A stretch of 12,135 bases of DNA, taken from a bacterium. Its GTDB lineage: Bacteria > UBP7 > UBA6624. The stretch covers positions 1 through 12,135 of the forward strand of contig JACNFQ010000040.1 in NCBI GenBank assembly GCA_014384545.1, written 5' to 3'. Shown one piece after another: positions 3,354-10,470 of the stretch. The notes beneath the pieces are model-generated. The model searched no databases. It saw nothing but the letters and a program-made list of their open reading frames with translations, and had not been told where the DNA came from. Both the position numbers and the translations under genes were made by a program. Numbering within the stretch: position 1 is the first letter of the stretch; every line of letters begins with the position of its first letter.

Positions 3354-4217
3354 ATGGATTCCAGAGATACTCTGTCCAGCGACCATCTTCCTGATGTGCA
3401 AGAGTGGTCCGATAGCCGAGGAATTGATATCGAAAAGGTTGGGGTTTCCGAGATTCGAATCCCTCTCCAACTTAGAGAGAAAGGAGGAGGTATCCAGCGC
3501 TCTGTGGGGGAAGTGGCCCTCTCAGTAGCTCTCCCTGGGAAATGGAAAGGGACTCATATGAGCCGCTTTACCCAGCTGCTAAATACCTTTACCCAAAACC
3601 CTGACCACACCTTTGCCAGCGGTGAAATGGTCGCCTTGGCTTCGATGATGTTGGAGAAGCTTGGTGCCCAACGAGCATTTGTGGAGGTTTCTGTAGACTT
3701 TTTTATGAATGTGGAGGCTCCGGAGACTGGTCTTGTAGGTGTTGCTCCTTATGTGGGGCTGATAGAGGTGGAGGTCGTTAGGGAGGATGAAGGAGATTGT
3801 CACACACGCGTTTTTACGGGGGTTGAAGTTCAGGGACAGACCTGTTGTCCTTGCTCCCGCGAGATTAGTGACTTTGACCCCAAGACAGGCAAAGGGCGCG
3901 GAGCCCATTCACAGCATGGGGATGTCCATATCTTAGTAGAAGCGAAGGCCGGGGAGATGATTTGGTTTGAAGACTTGATTGAGATAGCTATCTCTTCATT
4001 ATCCGCACCTTCTTACCCCATTCTGAAGCGCATTGACGAGCGTGCAGCAACGATTCAGGCGTATGACAATCCTTGCTTTGTAGAAGATGTTGTGCGGAAT
4101 GCAGCACTCCAACTACGCTCATTCCCGGGGATAAGTTGGTTTGAAGTAGAAGTCCTCAATCACGAAGTGATTCACTTCCACAAAGCGTTCGCTCGTATCC
4201 AAGAAGACGTCACTTAA
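3354..4217 (+). CDS. folE2: GTP cyclohydrolase IB (FolE2 family)
   Basis: Converts GTP to 7,8-dihydroneopterin triphosphate, the first step of tetrahydrofolate and other pterin synthesis. The 287 residues fit the FolE2 (COG1469) family. The N-terminus has LPDVQ followed by IDIEKVGV, a family signature, which supports the ATG at 3354. The active-site block is TCCPCSREIS with C165 as the expected catalytic/metal-binding Cys. It is followed by GAHSQ (H185), and the FVEDVVR motif (E244) probably supplies the acidic ligand. About eight extra residues (DFDPKTGK region) lie between the Cys and His motifs compared with the usual CPCS-GAH spacing as I recall it. Cys164 next to C165 is also unusual. 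FolE2 enzymes are metal-promiscuous substitutes for zinc-dependent FolE. I see no Zur-like site, and the short gap after dnaE suggests read-through expression. There is no strong Shine-Dalgarno sequence. Stop TAA lies 13 bases from the convergent cytidylyltransferase gene. Confidence 0.95.
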   Translation: MDSRDTLSSDHLPDVQEWSDSRGIDIEKVGVSEIRIPLQLREKGGGIQRSVGEVALSVALPGKWKGTHMSRFTQLLNTFTQNPDHTFASGEMVALASMMLEKLGAQRAFVEVSVDFFMNVEAPETGLVGVAPYVGLIEVEVVREDEGDCHTRVFTGVEVQGQTCCPCSREISDFDPKTGKGRGAHSQHGDVHILVEAKAGEMIWFEDLIEIAISSLSAPSYPILKRIDERAATIQAYDNPCFVEDVVRNAALQLRSFPGISWFEVEVLNHEVIHFHKAFARIQEDVT

Positions 4218-4230
4218 TTCAGTCGTTGCT

Positions 4231-4791
4231 CTAAACGCCCTTTGCATCTAGAGGATAGTCTATGTTCCGAAGGATCCCTGGGTCATTCACATCCAAATAG
4301 TGACGGTTTTGGACGGAGATCCAAGTCCTTAGGGGCGTGTGAGGTTCTTCAGCCATCAAGGAGGGTAGAAGGTCAGCACCGATGCCGATGGGATGACCAG
4401 ACTTTCCCTTATATTGAGGGCACACAACACCATGAGGAATGAGTTCTTTTTCTATCAGTTGAATTGTCTCCAGCGTGACCAAGGGGTGGTCAATGGGCCA
4501 CAATAGTACACCTCTTTCTACCTTGCCTAGTGCGTGAATGCCCACCTGGATAGAGCCTGTCCTACCCCTTTCGGGGTGGGGATTATGAATAGGGATAATG
4601 GAAGGAGAATCAAGAGCGGAAGTAATGACCTCTATATCTTTCCCCAGTACGAGCACGACCGATTGAAACCCTCCCTTTAGGCAGGTTGCATATAGTACTT
4701 CTGCGGCGGGGTTCCCCCCAATGGATGTGAGTGCTTTGGGAGTACCCATTCTTTGGGATGCCCCTGCAGCAAGGATGAGTGCAGCGGTCAA
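4231..4791 (-). CDS. mocA: MobA/MocA-like molybdenum cofactor nucleotidyltransferase
   Basis: Probably transfers CMP from CTP to molybdopterin, giving the molybdopterin cytosine dinucleotide used by bacterial xanthine-oxidase-family enzymes. The 186 residues form one NTP-transferase (GT-A) domain: nucleotide-binding LAAGASQRMGTPK (residues 7-19), GRTGSIQVG (76-84), the metal-binding acidic motif PIDHPLV (D101, in place of the common PADMPLV), GHPIGIG (132-138), and a C-terminal NDPGILRNIDYPLD segment matching the family's DIDTPED ending. The start is TTG at 4791-4789, whose last two bases form part of the TGA stop of the FAD-subunit gene (TTGA overlap), so translation is likely coupled. It is the last gene of the four-gene minus-strand operon, and its position there argues for a dedicated cofactor-maturation role. 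MobA (guanylyl) activity or another sugar-nucleotide function cannot be excluded from motifs alone. Confidence 0.85.
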   Translation of the reverse strand: MTAALILAAGASQRMGTPKALTSIGGNPAAEVLYATCLKGGFQSVVLVLGKDIEVITSALDSPSIIPIHNPHPERGRTGSIQVGIHALGKVERGVLLWPIDHPLVTLETIQLIEKELIPHGVVCPQYKGKSGHPIGIGADLLPSLMAEEPHTPLRTWISVQNRHYLDVNDPGILRNIDYPLDAKGV

Positions 4792-5744
4792 TGGTCGCCG
4801 CGAAGGCGCATAAGGAGACGTCGGACAAAGACGGGCACCATTCTCTTTCTATAACTAGGTGTTAGACCTACATTCTTCATCGGTTTCACACGTGCATAGG
4901 CGCTCTTTGCTATCACTTCAATCGCTTCATCAGTTAGAGGCTCTCCCAGAAAACTCTCAGTGGGCACTTCAATAGGAATGGAATCAACGGCTCCGAGGAA
5001 AAGAGATAAGTTAGATAAGTACCCTTCACAAAGTCCCATGGCGCAACCCACGCCAAGTAAGGGAAAATCCCACGCCTCGCGAATTCGGAGTTTGGCATAA
5101 CCGGTGAGAAGTGTGGGATCATCATGCCATGAGATAGTGGTAAGAATCTCTCCCGGTTTTAGGACCATTCTTCGAATCCCATCTTGTTGGTAAAAGGTGC
5201 GCAAGGGTAAAGATCTTTCTCCTTGAGGACCCACAAATGATAGTGTTGCATCCATCGCCATCAACAGAGGAGCCAAGTCGCTTGAGAATGTCGCTACACA
5301 ACTGTTAGCACCTGGCACGACACGACAGACTGGACCCTCCGCTTTGAGACAAGACCCAACTGTTGCTCTCCAAAACGGGCTTTGATTGAAGAAGTGGCAT
5401 CGGGTATCCAATAGGAGGTTGCCCCCAATCGTCGCCGTTGTCCGAATCAAAGGGCTAGCCACCACCTCAATCGCCTCTCTTAAGCCTTGAGGCAACGGAG
5501 AAAATCCCAAGAGTGAATGGAGCGTTGCCAAAGCCCCAATCTTCCCAGATTCCACATCGTGCAAGGAGGGAATGGACTGGAGAGAGATGAGATGAGGCTG
5601 ATTGTTGAGACGGTTCTTCCAGTTGGGGAGGAGGTCAGTGCCTCCAGCTAAGAATGAGACGCCCTCTTCTTGATGGAGGGCGGCAAGGTCAACAGCTTCA
5701 TCAACCGTTGTGGGACGGTGTAGGAGAAAGGGTGGAAGTATCAT
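4788..5744 (-). CDS. hcrB: FAD-binding subunit of a 4-hydroxybenzoyl-CoA reductase-like molybdoenzyme, with predicted extra [4Fe-4S] cluster
   Basis: Medium subunit that passes electrons between FAD and the iron-sulfur chain of the complex. The 318 residues show the FAD_binding_5 signatures FLAGGTDLL (31-39) and TIGGN (105-109), followed by the CO-dehydrogenase-flavoprotein C-terminal domain. After TIGGN comes a loop with RCHFFNQSPFWR and four cysteines, C116, C132, C140 and C149. Their spacing of 16, 8 and 9 equals that of the four [4Fe-4S] ligands I recall for Thauera aromatica HcrB (C122, C138, C146, C155), shifted by six throughout. Ordinary xanthine dehydrogenase and CO dehydrogenase FAD subunits lack this loop. 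In HcrB the loop is an insertion that lets electrons enter from a low-potential donor. The start ATG overlaps the large-subunit stop (ATGA). The family assignment is strong; the physiological substrate is inferred. Confidence 0.93.
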   Translation of the reverse strand: MILPPFLLHRPTTVDEAVDLAALHQEEGVSFLAGGTDLLPNWKNRLNNQPHLISLQSIPSLHDVESGKIGALATLHSLLGFSPLPQGLREAIEVVASPLIRTTATIGGNLLLDTRCHFFNQSPFWRATVGSCLKAEGPVCRVVPGANSCVATFSSDLAPLLMAMDATLSFVGPQGERSLPLRTFYQQDGIRRMVLKPGEILTTISWHDDPTLLTGYAKLRIREAWDFPLLGVGCAMGLCEGYLSNLSLFLGAVDSIPIEVPTESFLGEPLTDEAIEVIAKSAYARVKPMKNVGLTPSYRKRMVPVFVRRLLMRLRGDH

Positions 5745-8098
5745 CGCTTCTTGTCCAAAGCAGCCAGAACCTTGTCTGGTGTGATGGGGAGATGTCGCAT
5801 TCGGATACCGACCGCATCATGAATCCCATTCCCAATGGCGGGCAGGATGGGCAATAGAGGGCCTTCCCCCGCTTCTTTTGCCCCATAAGGTCCTTCGGGG
5901 TCGTTAGATTCCACCAAGAAAACCTCCACTTCAGGGGCATCTGTAGAGGGAATAATCTTATAGTCCAGTAGATTGGCGTTCTCAATGCGCCCCGAGCCTC
6001 GGTTATAGTCGAAAGATTCGGTCAATGCTTGGCCCATGCCCATATGGACACATCCCTCAATCTGCCCTTCAACAGCGATTGGGTTTATGGCAAATCCACA
6101 ATCATGAGCCGCCCACACCTTAGGGACTTTCACAATCCCCGTTTCTGGATCCACATCCACTTCGGCGATGTAGGCACTCATGGAGTAGGACGGTGAAAGC
6201 CCAGCTGCAGCTCCCTTATGTGTGCCTCCCATAACGGCTCCCTTTTCTGATTCTTTACCGCGCAAGATCTCCACACGGGGCAAATCAGGATTCAAGTTAG
6301 GGGCTTGGTAGTGCCCTTTGCCGTGGAGCGCTCCTGAATCGAAAAGTGCCTCCCGCACCGCATCAACAAACGAGAGTCTGATCGTAGGGTTAGGTGCATA
6401 TATGACCTCTTCGCCTTCCAGAACAAAACCAGAAGCAGGTTGACCCGTTAGACGTGCTGCACCAGCAACAATCTGTTGAGCTACTTTTTCTGCTGCACGG
6501 ATTGCTGCGTTACCCGCCATGAAGGTCACACGGGAGGAATAGGACCCCAAATCGATGGGTGATGTATCGCTGTTCTTGGTGTAGACACGAATACGGTTAA
6601 GTCCTACACCCAGCCCTTCTGCTACACATTGAGCCAAGACTGTATCAGATCCCTGCCCTATTTCAGCAGCCAAGGAGTGTACAGTAACACCCCCATCAAA
6701 ATCGACTTTCAGATGGACGGTGCTTTGAGGCATTCGCTCCCAATGAATCGGTAGAGCACTCCCAGAAATGTAGAACCCACATCCGATACCTAGCCCTTTC
6801 CCAAAAGGGAGGTTCCCACGGCGCTCGTCCCAACCAGATGCCTCTCTAACGACCTCAATGCACTCCCGAATACCGCAACTGGTGATTCTGAGACCGTTAG
6901 GGGTTAAGGAATGGGGCTGCCATGCGTTTTGGAGACGAATAGCGCAAGGATCCATCCCCAAATCCTCTGCGATTTCGTCCAACAGGGTCTCCAACGCATA
7001 CCTAGAGTTCACGGCACCATGCCCACGCATTGCTCCTGAAGGAGGCTTATTCGTTGTTACGCGGCGACCTCTGTAATCAAAGGAGGGTATCTTGTAAGGT
7101 CCCATTGACAAGGCACCGTTGTAATAAGAGGTAATGACCCCAAAAGAACCCCATGCTCCACCATCAATCAGAGCATCTATTTGGAGGGCAGTCAAGTTCC
7201 CCAACGCATCAGCAGAGAGTGCCATTTCTGTCTTGGTGGGGTGGCGACCATGGTTTGTGATAAAGAGTTCTTCTCTGTCAAAGAGAATCTTGACAGGGCG
7301 ACCAGATTTCTTGGCGAGAAGAGCAGCGACCATTTCGTGGGGGAACGGGTCGCTTTTCCCCCCAAAACCTCCACCTACATAAGGGCGAATGACCCGAACC
7401 TTGTGCATCGGCAACTCAAATACTTCTGCGAGAGAGCGTTGGAGATAATGGGGTACTTGAGTCGCACTCCAAACAGTCAATCGTCCTTGAGCTGACCAAT
7501 GAGCAATCGTGGCATGGGGCTCCGTGGGAGCATGGGTAACACCTTGGAAGCGAAAAGAGCCCTTGACCGAAGAACGAGCGTCACGAAATGCCTCTTCCAC
7601 ATCTCCAAAGGACTGTTTGACCTCTTTGAAACGGCTGCCTGGATAGCTGTGCATGGGTTGGATCTTTTCAACGCCATCTTTGAGGGGTTTGAGAGCTTCG
7701 TCCATCCTCAATACAGGGGGCAGCACCTTCGTTTTCACCTTGATAAGGGAAAGCGCCTCCAAGGCGATTGCCTCGGTGTCGGCAGCGACTGCTGCAATGC
7801 CATCTCCTAAATAGACAACTTTGTCCACCGCCAAAGCTGTTTCATCTTTAGTCATCGGAAGAACACCAAATCGAATAGGCGCATCTGCACCTACGGCTAC
7901 CGCGTGAACACCAAGTAGATTTGATGCATCCACTACCCTAATAGACTCGATTTGGGCATGTTCGTGAGGGCTGCGCAGAATACGACCAACCAGGAGCCCA
8001 GGGAGGGTTATGTCATCGGTGTAAACTGCCTCGCCCGTTACTTTTTCGGCACCATCAACGAGTGGTGTTGACTTGCCAACAATCTCTTTGGATGTCAT
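5741..8098 (-). CDS. hcrA: Molybdopterin-binding large subunit, 4-hydroxybenzoyl-CoA reductase-like (xanthine oxidase family)
   Basis: Catalytic subunit that binds the Mo-pterin cofactor and the substrate. The 785 residues are close to the roughly 770 of HcrA. The N-terminal aldehyde-oxidase/xanthine-dehydrogenase a/b hammerhead domain opens with TPLVDGAEKVTG (11-22) and LVGRILRSPH (36-45). Cofactor-binding motifs follow: GGGFGGKSD (242-250), AMRGHGAVNSR (356-366), EIGQGSDT (479-486, Q482 near Mo), GSYSSRVTFMAGNAAI (518-533) and GPYGAKEAGEG (736-746), where E745 is the expected catalytic Glu. The AMRGHG motif replaces the Cys-containing loop of Mo/Cu CO dehydrogenase, which rules that enzyme out. 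The SYSSRVTFM and GAMRGHG blocks resemble 4-hydroxybenzoyl-CoA reductases as I remember them. No signal peptide is seen, so it is cytoplasmic. ATGA overlaps join it to both neighbours. A hydroxylase for another aromatic or heterocyclic substrate remains possible. Confidence 0.94.
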   Translation of the reverse strand: MTSKEIVGKSTPLVDGAEKVTGEAVYTDDITLPGLLVGRILRSPHEHAQIESIRVVDASNLLGVHAVAVGADAPIRFGVLPMTKDETALAVDKVVYLGDGIAAVAADTEAIALEALSLIKVKTKVLPPVLRMDEALKPLKDGVEKIQPMHSYPGSRFKEVKQSFGDVEEAFRDARSSVKGSFRFQGVTHAPTEPHATIAHWSAQGRLTVWSATQVPHYLQRSLAEVFELPMHKVRVIRPYVGGGFGGKSDPFPHEMVAALLAKKSGRPVKILFDREELFITNHGRHPTKTEMALSADALGNLTALQIDALIDGGAWGSFGVITSYYNGALSMGPYKIPSFDYRGRRVTTNKPPSGAMRGHGAVNSRYALETLLDEIAEDLGMDPCAIRLQNAWQPHSLTPNGLRITSCGIRECIEVVREASGWDERRGNLPFGKGLGIGCGFYISGSALPIHWERMPQSTVHLKVDFDGGVTVHSLAAEIGQGSDTVLAQCVAEGLGVGLNRIRVYTKNSDTSPIDLGSYSSRVTFMAGNAAIRAAEKVAQQIVAGAARLTGQPASGFVLEGEEVIYAPNPTIRLSFVDAVREALFDSGALHGKGHYQAPNLNPDLPRVEILRGKESEKGAVMGGTHKGAAAGLSPSYSMSAYIAEVDVDPETGIVKVPKVWAAHDCGFAINPIAVEGQIEGCVHMGMGQALTESFDYNRGSGRIENANLLDYKIIPSTDAPEVEVFLVESNDPEGPYGAKEAGEGPLLPILPAIGNGIHDAVGIRMRHLPITPDKVLAALDKKR

Positions 8099-8553
8099 TC
8101 CTTCGCTCTCTCTTTAGCAGAGAGGCGTATCGCCTTGATAATCTTGGTGTATCCTGTGCATCGGCAGAGATTGCCAGAAATCGCTTCCCTAATCTCTTGA
8201 TCTGTGGGATCTGGATTACTGCGAAGGAAGGCATCGGCAGTGATAAGGAATCCGGGCGTACAAAAGCCGCACTGACTTCCGCCCACTTCCCAAAACAGGC
8301 GTTGAAGCGGCGCTAGATTGTTGGGGGTGCCCAAACCTTCAATCGTTGAAATCTCTTTACCCGCTGCCTCCTTTGTCAAGAGCAAGCATGAGAGAACGGG
8401 GAGACCATCCACTTGGACGGCACAACAGCCACAAGTACCCATATCACAACCCCGCTTGGTACCTGTTAGACCGAGAGACCGAAGGGTATCCAAAAGGAGG
8501 GCATGGGGAGCTAGAGCAACCGTTTTCTGCGCCCCATTGATTGAGAGTGTCAT
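8095..8553 (-). CDS. hcrC: 2Fe-2S iron-sulfur small subunit of the molybdoenzyme
   Basis: Electron-transfer subunit with two [2Fe-2S] clusters between the Mo site and the FAD subunit. Numbering from the ATG at 8553 (152 residues; HcrC is about 160): plant-type ferredoxin cluster C36, C41, C44 and C56 in GTKRGCDMGTCGCC...LPVLSC, then the second cluster in SQCGFCTPG (C95, C98) and NLCRCTGY (C130, C132). C43 is an additional Cys where the family has Ala (CGCC instead of CGAC). The frame stays open to an ATG at 8808, but that 85-residue extension has no family similarity and lies antisense to xdhC. ATGs at 8601 and 8592 would add only 16 or 13 residues and are real alternatives. It is the first gene of the operon, and its TGA overlaps the next ATG. 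No good Shine-Dalgarno sequence precedes 8553. Confidence 0.93.
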   Translation of the reverse strand: MTLSINGAQKTVALAPHALLLDTLRSLGLTGTKRGCDMGTCGCCAVQVDGLPVLSCLLLTKEAAGKEISTIEGLGTPNNLAPLQRLFWEVGGSQCGFCTPGFLITADAFLRSNPDPTDQEIREAISGNLCRCTGYTKIIKAIRLSAKERAKE

Positions 8554-8599
8554 CACTTCGGCTCGGTCCTGTTTTGGAGAAGGAGTTCCCATAGATTCC

Positions 8600-8619
8600 A
8601 TTCTAGTCTTATCTAGAAT
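8600..8619. promoter_or_regulatory. Perfect inverted repeat in the divergent xdhC / molybdoenzyme intergenic gap
   Basis: ATTCTAG (8600-8606), a six-base spacer TCTTAT, then CTAGAAT (8613-8619): the two arms are exact reverse complements. It lies in the 73-base gap between two divergent transcription units, so it is placed to act as an operator for a dimeric regulator acting on both directions. It could instead form a weak hairpin in either leader RNA. On the minus strand it sits directly after GAGGAGG (8626-8620). I cannot identify convincing -35/-10 boxes in the gap. The function is inferred from position and symmetry. Confidence 0.5.
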
Positions 8620-8626
8620 CCTCCTC

Positions 8627-9403
8627 ATGGGATTGTCCTTCCATCGTCGTGTTCTTGAGTGCATCGAAAAGAGAGAACGAGTCGTCGTTGCCCGTTTGGT
8701 CTTGGTTGAAGGGCATGCCCCCCAAGAACCTGGAGCGGGGATGATCGTCTTTTCGGACGGAACGATTGAGTTTACGATTGGTGGAGGTCCCTTTGAAGCC
8801 AAAGTCATAAGTGATGCCCTAAAGCTCTTTGAGGGACCTGAGAGGATGAAACAGAAGAGTTATTCTCTGACAAGATCATCGCTAGGCATGGACTGTGCCG
8901 GCAAAGCGACCGTTCTCCTTGAAGTGGTCTCTCCTCCCCACCGCTTGTTCGTTTTTGGAGGAGGGCATGTGGGAAGAACATTAGCTGCCTCCACAGTCGC
9001 CTTGGGGCTTTTTGAAGTGTGGGTCATTGATGATCGGGAAGCGTTCGTCCATCCCCAACGCCATCCCCACTGTCACACCCATTGGGCAGAAAAAGACTGG
9101 ATAGATGGATTGCCACCTATGGACAGTCAGAGTTTTGTCGTCGTTGCAACGCGGTGCCATCAAACTGACAAGGGGATTGTGAAGGCGCTCGCTTTAAAAC
9201 GACTGGCATACTTGGGCATGCTGGGAAGCAAGGTGAAGGTAGCTACGATGTGGAACGAACTCGTGATGGAGGGGATTCCCCCTTCCGCCCTAGACCTTAT
9301 TGATGCGCCAGCAGGACTCCCCATTGGGGGGAAAACTCCCGGGGAAATTGCTGCGAGTATTTTGGCAAAACTCGTTCAAGTGCGCACCCACCTACCCTCC
9401 TAG
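8627..9403 (+). CDS. xdhC: XdhC/CoxI family molybdenum-cofactor maturation protein
   Basis: XdhC proteins bind the molybdenum cofactor, protect it during sulfuration, and deliver it to xanthine-oxidase-family apoenzymes. The 258 residues contain the N-terminal XdhC/CoxI domain (VVVARLVLVEG; GAGMIVFSDG; GGGPFEAKV; GMDCAGKATVLLEV with C90) and the C-terminal Rossmann-type domain: LFVFGGGHVGRTLA (107-120), VVVATRCHQTDKG, YLGMLGSKVK (195-204) and the highly typical DAPAGLPIGGKTPGEIAASILAK (226-248). The frame is open from an ATG at 8318, but family homology begins at about 8630, and the upstream part is antisense to the 2Fe-2S subunit gene, so the ATG at 8627 was chosen. It is preceded by CCTCCTC rather than a Shine-Dalgarno sequence. 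Divergent placement beside the molybdoenzyme operon links it to that enzyme. Its TAG stop shares CTAG with the convergent protease gene. Confidence 0.92.
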   Translation: MGLSFHRRVLECIEKRERVVVARLVLVEGHAPQEPGAGMIVFSDGTIEFTIGGGPFEAKVISDALKLFEGPERMKQKSYSLTRSSLGMDCAGKATVLLEVVSPPHRLFVFGGGHVGRTLAASTVALGLFEVWVIDDREAFVHPQRHPHCHTHWAEKDWIDGLPPMDSQSFVVVATRCHQTDKGIVKALALKRLAYLGMLGSKVKVATMWNELVMEGIPPSALDLIDAPAGLPIGGKTPGEIAASILAKLVQVRTHLPS

Positions 9404-10470
9404 GGGGTAAGATTGGGGCCCAACCAATCCCCCCCCTCGATAGCGATATCGCCATCTGTCAGAATCAGAGTTCCTTCGAAATGCCACCCTTGTTCCACGA
9501 CACCTCCGCCCCCACATCCAGCGATAACGAGGAGGAGGGTAAGGAGTCGTTTTCTTCTTGAGAGAAAAGGGAGGAAGAGGAGAAATGCCCAAGCGGGAGA
9601 GAGAGCTCGGGAAGCGACGATTTTCAGGGTGTCTCCTGATTGGGGGGCAAAGGACTCCCAACTTAAAGACCATTCCTCGGTTCCATGAGCGATGACTGAA
9701 GTGAGTAGTGTCTCTTCACCCTCTCGAACTAGGGTAGCAGAGAGAGAATTGAGTTCTTCTCCATGGACAGAACGAACCGTCATTCCACGAAGAGTTAGTG
9801 GCGTGCCTTGGATACGAAGAGTTGCAGATAATACGGTTTGGCTCATCCCTTCTCTTAGGGTGAGGCTATCCCGAATGGGTGTGATGAGGAGTCGGGGTGG
9901 ATAGGACGTTGACAAGGAGAGTTCGTTCGCTGGAAATAGTTGGCGTCGAACGCCTTGGTAGGTCGGTTCCATCACATTGGGGAGTTCCCAACTTGAAAGG
10001 GCGTGTCCCTCTCCTAAGAGGTGGATAAGTTCGTGCAGGACAACTGTTTCAAGGTCTAGGGGACAGGAACCATTGGAGGGAGTATGACCATCGGGTAAGC
10101 CCTCTACCCAACATGCATTGGGGTCAAAGAGAATATCTGCCTCTTGAACAACTCCTGCCTTATCCCATCTCCAAGTCCTGCCATGGGCATGCCCCGACCC
10201 AGGGGAATACGGTCCCCACCCTGCTCTGTTTTTACCATCCCTAATAAACCCAGCACCCCCTGTTGCAGGAACGACGATAACGACGAGCCCTGAACCAGAC
10301 ACAAAGGAGATTCTGCTTGCGGCTCTTTCAAAAGAAGGAAGAAGATCAATCACGCCTCCCTCTACGACTTCAACGATAAGGGGGTCTGTTGAGGGTGGCC
10401 AGGTCGCATTTGAGACGGCTAATAGAGAGAGTGAGAAGAAAAAAAACAGAGGGAGTCGTCGCTTCTTCAT
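9400..10470 (-). CDS. Secreted matrixin-like zinc metalloprotease with unusual double-hydrophobic, lipobox-containing C-terminus
   Basis: Predicted exported zinc peptidase of the metzincin clan. Of 356 residues, 1-22 look like a Sec signal peptide (MKKRR, then a long Phe/Leu core and cleavage near SNA). The catalytic motif is HELIHLLGEGH (146-156), fitting HExxHxxGxxH with E147 as the general base, and the Met-turn is NVMEP (M167). C120 and C136 may form a disulfide. Residues about 190-288 look like a beta-rich accessory domain. The tail has SPAWAFLLFLPFL, RRKR (305-308), then LLTLLLVIAGCGGGG, which reads like an internal lipoprotein signal with lipobox IAGC (C319), followed by 37 further residues. 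The start ATG overlaps the TGA of the permease-like gene upstream, so translation is probably coupled. The family is clear from the motif; the substrate is unknown. The gene is broadly compatible with M10A-like peptidases seen in bacterial genomes. Confidence 0.82.
   Translation of the reverse strand: MKKRRLPLFFFFSLSLLAVSNATWPPSTDPLIVEVVEGGVIDLLPSFERAASRISFVSGSGLVVIVVPATGGAGFIRDGKNRAGWGPYSPGSGHAHGRTWRWDKAGVVQEADILFDPNACWVEGLPDGHTPSNGSCPLDLETVVLHELIHLLGEGHALSSWELPNVMEPTYQGVRRQLFPANELSLSTSYPPRLLITPIRDSLTLREGMSQTVLSATLRIQGTPLTLRGMTVRSVHGEELNSLSATLVREGEETLLTSVIAHGTEEWSLSWESFAPQSGDTLKIVASRALSPAWAFLLFLPFLSRRKRLLTLLLVIAGCGGGGVVEQGWHFEGTLILTDGDIAIEGGDWLGPNLTP

Follow-up and report, generated by a model that had tools for sequence, protein, structure and literature searches.

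A putative 4-hydroxybenzoyl-CoA reductase-type molybdenum enzyme in a small bacterial genome that also encodes a benzoyl-CoA reductase

We favour, with moderate confidence, the view that the window, i.e. the whole 12,135-nucleotide stretch of DNA analysed here, encodes a member of an uncharacterised clade of 4-hydroxybenzoyl-CoA reductase (HBCR) type, and that this enzyme would dehydroxylate 4-hydroxybenzoyl-CoA or a close relative and thereby feed a benzoyl-CoA reductase (BCR) pathway encoded elsewhere in the same genome. The window is an entire contig of a 1.39 Mb metagenome-assembled genome, 79% complete (hereafter G000), which we compared with the two other genomes of its phylum, one of them G002. 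What the DNA shows is the homology of the cysteines, the conservation of the catalytic residues, the genes for subunits and maturation, a downstream pathway in the same genome and, in one relative, linkage of homologous operons; that the cluster is occupied, what donates the electrons, and which substrate is converted in which direction are inferred for the window enzyme.

The complex is encoded on the minus strand in the order FeS-Mo-FAD-mocA, each gene overlapping the next by 4 bp. The genes specify an HcrC-like subunit with two [2Fe-2S] clusters (8095..8601; TIGR03193, Pfam Fer2 and Fer2_2), an HcrA-like Mo catalytic subunit of 785 residues (5741..8098; phmmer to 1RM6_A, E 2.3e-186; TIGR03194), an HcrB-like FAD subunit of 318 residues with a four-cysteine loop (4788..5744; phmmer to 1RM6_B, TIGR03195 and an AlphaFold2 model) and a MocA-like molybdenum cofactor cytidylyltransferase (4231..4791; NTP_transf_3; TIGR03310 at E 6.6e-31, below cut-off). 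Divergently, on the plus strand, lies a gene for an XdhC-family Moco insertion chaperone (8627..9403; XdhC_C, XdhC_CoxI; TIGR02964 at E 8.6e-34). The HBCR-type set of Mo, FAD and two-[2Fe-2S] subunits is present, together with MCD maturation genes. The FeS reading frame extends to 8808, but the family match starts only at residue 86, which makes 8601, 8592 or 8556 the probable start; xdhC probably begins at the ATG at 8627, in a frame running from 8318. The two mechanically called frames overlap on opposite strands at 8318-8808, and both probably start later.

The setting of the operon is plain. A FolE2 GTP cyclohydrolase (3354..4217, plus strand; Pfam GCHY-1) adjoins it, and the order dnaE-folE2-[mocA-FAD-Mo-FeS]-xdhC-exporter is conserved in the sister-genus genome G002 (SP4379, PBAU01000003.1; locus L004). 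The window and SP4379 pair in the Mo-subunit tree with a support of 100. A marked imbalance was seen between the two operons: their Mo subunits are 67% identical, their FAD subunits only 44%. In G001, a search for the FAD subunit gave no match. Separately, positions 9400-10470 of the window encode a protein with the motif HELIHLLGEGH, a matrixin-like zinc protease signature, for which no Pfam match was found. The genes around the window operon are housekeeping genes, and when neighbours were clustered across 80 loci, maturation genes were recovered and otherwise housekeeping genes (a first pass of this clustering was unreliable because of antisense reading frames in GC-rich genomes).

The sequence-only reading had drawn attention to four cysteines directly after the TIGGN motif of the FAD subunit and had equated them with the [4Fe-4S] site of HcrB of Thauera aromatica. 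The cysteines are indeed there. TIGGN occupies residues 105-109 and the first loop cysteine, C116, follows seven residues on; the predicted [4Fe-4S] ligands (5298..5399, minus strand), assigned from codon positions and the HcrB alignment, are C116 (codon 5397-5399), C132 (5349-5351), C140 (5325-5327) and C149 (5298-5300), four of the six cysteines in the subunit, with a spacing of 16-8-9 that lies inside 5275-5410. The equation with HcrB also stood: phmmer aligned the subunit to 1RM6 chain B (E 6.4e-53) with no gap in the loop, placing the cysteines one to one on C122, C138, C146 and C155, so the residue numbers that had been given for HcrB were correct.

The loop is strongly conserved among relatives. 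None of the four cysteines varies across 41 aligned relatives, and four are kept in 111/111 loop-bearing FAD subunits, and on this evidence the match to HcrB is a matter of homology and not of chance. The exact 16-8-9 spacing is found in 68 of the 111; 16-11-10 occurs in 29, 16-8-19 in 13 and 16-8-10 in 1. The variants include lineage-specific insertions that leave the four cysteines intact, 16-11-10 in Poseidoniales (e.g. locus L082) and 16-8-19 in Planctomycetota (e.g. L019). Of the 111, 80 were retrieved with a pattern that included C116 but not the other three cysteines, hence the conservation of C116 is partly selected. Among loci fetched via the Mo subunit alone, the loop was present in 55 of the 56 that had a FAD gene in reach. 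The exception is locus L138 (contig C80 of genome G079), where a Tyr/His/Glu Mo site is paired with a FAD subunit of the ordinary kind that lacks the loop; at 890 bits, its Mo subunit has the top HBCR score in the sample of its phylum.

The predicted fold of the subunit as a whole is also closest to HcrB. The AlphaFold2 model of the FAD subunit (pLDDT 84.5, pTM 0.86) has 1rm6_B as its closest solved structure, with a TM of 0.87 and a Z of 36.7 over 314 residues, against some 275 residues aligned for most other FAD subunits in the fold search. The cysteine loop itself, modelled with no cofactor, has a pLDDT of 56-65, as is usual for loops modelled cofactor-free.

In the Mo subunit, equivalents of HcrA Tyr326, His360 and Glu726, which we take to be the catalytic residues, are all kept. 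The same holds for 62/62 relatives whose Mo subunit is full-length and for 60/60 further loci fetched via the Mo subunit. Residues 326 and 360 differ in quinoline oxidoreductase, in 6-hydroxypseudooxynicotine dehydrogenase and in two XDH-type plasmid proteins; position 360 is His in the window and Tyr in the XDH-type loci L179 and L180. For all three subunits, the HBCR models were the top-scoring models, and the FAD and Mo subunits had 1RM6 as their highest-scoring match. None reached its NCBIfam equivalog cut-off: the Mo subunit scored 844 bits against 994.55 (TIGR03194), the FAD subunit 243 against 404.55 (TIGR03195) and the FeS subunit 175.5 against 257.8 (TIGR03193). The window complex thus resembles HcrABC of T. 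aromatica (1RM6) in its three subunits, its cysteine spacing, its three Mo-site residues and its fold, but differs from it in several respects. Its FAD and Mo subunits are only 36% and 45% identical to those of HcrABC, its Mo subunit has some 18 inserted residues around 600-640, its gene order is FeS-Mo-FAD-mocA and no aromatic genes adjoin it.

An aromatic pathway is encoded in G000 nonetheless, at a distance. Reductive chemistry had been called notable beside such neighbours; the neighbours are as plain as described, but the pathway sits elsewhere in the genome. Contig C12 carries, at 18159-22240, a TetR gene and four class I benzoyl-CoA reductase genes, bcrCBAD, for two HGD-D proteins and two adjacent, distinct BcrAD_BadFG ATPases. 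BcrB scored 514.7 bits to MbdO and BcrC 476.6 bits to MbdN, far above 2-hydroxyacyl-CoA dehydratases; judged by these matches, the enzyme is an MBR-type class I reductase. The 3-methylbenzoyl-CoA reductase MbdNOQP (9G87), which it resembles also in its pair of ATPase subunits, is a counterpart of the proposed downstream enzyme, encoded on another contig, and not a homologue of the window complex. Contig C74 encodes Oah at 611 bits, over its cut-off of 464.45, which 0/14 control genomes exceeded; next to it lie genes for an SDR, Had and Dch, the last two being the top matches of their models, below cut-offs. Within G000 the window operon is unlinked to these genes, the bcr and oah-had-dch groups being on other contigs. 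Benzoyl-CoA reductase was thus recovered among the partners proposed from the sequence alone, as was a ferredoxin-linked function, a 2-oxoacid:ferredoxin oxidoreductase subunit. The third partner, a 4-hydroxybenzoate-CoA ligase, was not: in the 79% complete G000, the two AMP-binding proteins matched by PF00501 were an acetate-CoA ligase and a ligase of the fatty-acid type, the latter also present in G002, and no aromatic-CoA ligase was found.

Directly upstream of oah on C74 (locus L130, 2604-8233), we also observed genes for a molybdoenzyme of the DMSO-reductase family and its FeS, NrfD-like and TorD-like partners. The top matches, all low-scoring, are reductases of thiosulfate and arsenate. 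To judge from them, the operon may encode either a reductase of a respiratory chain or an oxidoreductase of aryl-acetyl-CoA; phenylacetyl-CoA oxidoreductase was considered and is one candidate.

Taken with the aromatic genes, the window enzyme may be pictured as follows. A low-potential one-electron donor, for example ferredoxin reduced by the 2-oxoacid:ferredoxin oxidoreductase of the genome, would reduce the HcrB-type [4Fe-4S] cluster, from which electrons would reach the Mo site by way of FAD and the two [2Fe-2S] clusters. There, the para-hydroxyl of 4-hydroxybenzoyl-CoA or of a closely related aryl-CoA would be removed, and the dehydroxylated product would enter the MBR-type benzoyl-CoA reductase and then the Dch-Had-Oah steps.

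The loop was found in 80 contig loci, mostly from Thermoplasmata (Poseidoniales among them), Planctomycetota, Wallbacteria, KSB1 and Gemmatimonadota. Of 40 genomes of this set tested for BcrB, G001 with its unmatched FAD subunit being one of the 40, 16 had a homologue at E up to 1e-20, and BCR-Oah-Had-Dch genes recur among carriers in Thermoplasmata, Planctomycetota, Wallbacteria and two further bacteria. We then sampled 389 genomes of Thermoplasmatota. At thresholds of E up to 1e-200 for the Mo subunit and up to 1e-60 for BcrB, the former was detected in 141 of them and the latter in 23. The Mo subunit was present in 21/23 BCR-bearing genomes versus 120/366 others (odds ratio 21.5, Fisher p 2.4e-8, uncorrected for kinship).

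Physical linkage was seen in two Thermoplasmatota. G318 has a mocA-xdhC-FeS-Mo-FAD operon, with a 16-8-9 loop, about 200 bp from a divergent BcrB-A-D-C operon. G042 has MBR-type bcrCBAD genes, whose products are 58-73% identical to those of G000, within about 23 kb of genes for a ligase, Had, Oah, Dch, an SDR and the FeS and Mo subunits, with no FAD gene there. The same G042 region (loci L173/L174 on contig C5, 6600-29500 of the joined stretch) also holds two more genes like BcrB, another ATPase gene and a gene for an AOR-like protein.

The chief caution is that many carriers, the sister genus and Poseidoniales among them, are without a benzoyl-CoA reductase; in these, the enzyme either serves a different function or yields a product that is used in some other way. 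Scores below the equivalog cut-offs, the lack of linkage within G000 and the aromatic-CoA ligase that was not found in it also speak against our reading. Most Thermoplasmatota carriers of the Mo subunit (120/141), marine Poseidoniales included, have no detected benzoyl-CoA reductase, thus the loop by itself does not point to an anaerobic aromatic pathway. G002, which keeps the operon in the same place, yielded neither a benzoyl-CoA reductase nor a true Oah. BCR-bearing genomes are dispersed over the Mo-subunit tree, with 13 changes against a shuffled mean of about 16 (45/500 shuffles were as low), which suggests that the pathway comes and goes and the Mo enzyme stays. In a second phylum of large genomes, probably Myxococcota, HBCR-type Mo subunits were found in 128/377 genomes, again with the 16-8-9 loop. 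No sequence from either sampled phylum exceeded the HBCR cut-off, so that HcrA of T. aromatica, which sits on a long branch, is the one true HBCR that the tree contains.

These observations bear on the strongest alternative, that the HBCR architecture serves another substrate, its ancestral role being unrelated to benzoyl-CoA and its co-occurrence with BCR in G000 incidental. Retention of the operon by the sister genus and by many genomes with no detected BCR, the wide occurrence of the same architecture in the Myxococcota-like phylum with no member over the HBCR cut-off, and the housekeeping neighbours would all fit such a role. The association in Thermoplasmatota does not, nor do the G318 operon beside its bcr genes, the FeS and Mo genes inside the G042 aromatic cluster and the invariance of the three catalytic residues. 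We regard another substrate as rather unlikely for the window enzyme.

A second alternative is that the enzyme is oxidative, a water-dependent hydroxylase or a dehydrogenase of aldehydes or heterocycles, in which the extra cluster would pass electrons out, as in PaoABC. Oxidation is the usual direction in this family, and a COX1-type oxidase gene is present in 3/3 genomes of the phylum, for which reason the window organism is probably not a strict anaerobe. Moreover, PaoABC (5G5G) and the aldehyde oxidase 5Y6Q have a cysteine-rich insertion at the same place of the FAD subunit, and PaoB of E. coli binds a [4Fe-4S] cluster. The claim that such a site is the hallmark of a reductive branch was thus overstated: both proteins belong to oxidative enzymes, a four-cysteine FAD loop alone does not imply reduction, and we do not take the extra cluster by itself as proof of a reductive enzyme. 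The details of the loop are more telling. The spacing is 10-9-19 in PaoB and 12-9-19 in 5Y6Q chain B, both more distant from the window in sequence and in the fold search; the 10-9-19 spacing is absent from the window FAD subunit, whose signature RCxFxNQ...WR...C(L)K is of the HcrB type and not that of PaoB. The catalytic residues likewise follow HcrA. At the level of sequence, HcrB spacing combined with HcrA residues makes a more specific sign of reduction than the loop alone, and we consider an oxidative role quite improbable. A purine role as xanthine dehydrogenase was suggested by the genes around the operon, named by eye as guaA, guaB and hpt in G002 and as purN-like in Thermoplasmata; it was dropped since the Mo-site residues follow HcrA and the Mo subunit missed the XDH equivalog cut-offs (528 of 780 bits for the top XDH-type model).

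Reductive dehydroxylation by an enzyme of this kind has a recent precedent. Ucdh of Enterocloster bolteae, by its published description, is a three-subunit enzyme of the xanthine oxidase family that removes a phenolic hydroxyl reductively and whose activity is helped by XdhC; at 32.7% identity to 4-HBCR, it was presented in 2025 as the second reductive dehydroxylase of this family after 4-HBCR, with more expected (PMC12771579). Our literature search turned up no paper on the HBCR-type clade described here. The xdhC and yagS genes of Poseidoniales (MGIIb) genomes have been read as xanthine dehydrogenase genes (PMC9723583), and by our comparisons some Poseidoniales genes read in this way may be of the HBCR type. 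More tentatively, and with a little less than even confidence, we suggest that HBCR-type enzymes, defined by a four-cysteine FAD subunit and a Tyr326/His360 Mo site, form a large, mostly unrecognised family, spread over Thermoplasmatota including the marine Poseidoniales, Planctomycetota, the Myxococcota-like phylum and the three-genome lineage of the window, in which many members from BCR-less genomes run another, undescribed reaction.

The clade provides a defined candidate set for reductive phenolic dehydroxylases that can be tested by one assay. Together with the genes on the other contigs, the analysis places a complete ATP-dependent benzoyl-CoA pathway in a small bacterial genome, from a lineage of which few genomes have been sampled, and in relatives among the Thermoplasmatota.
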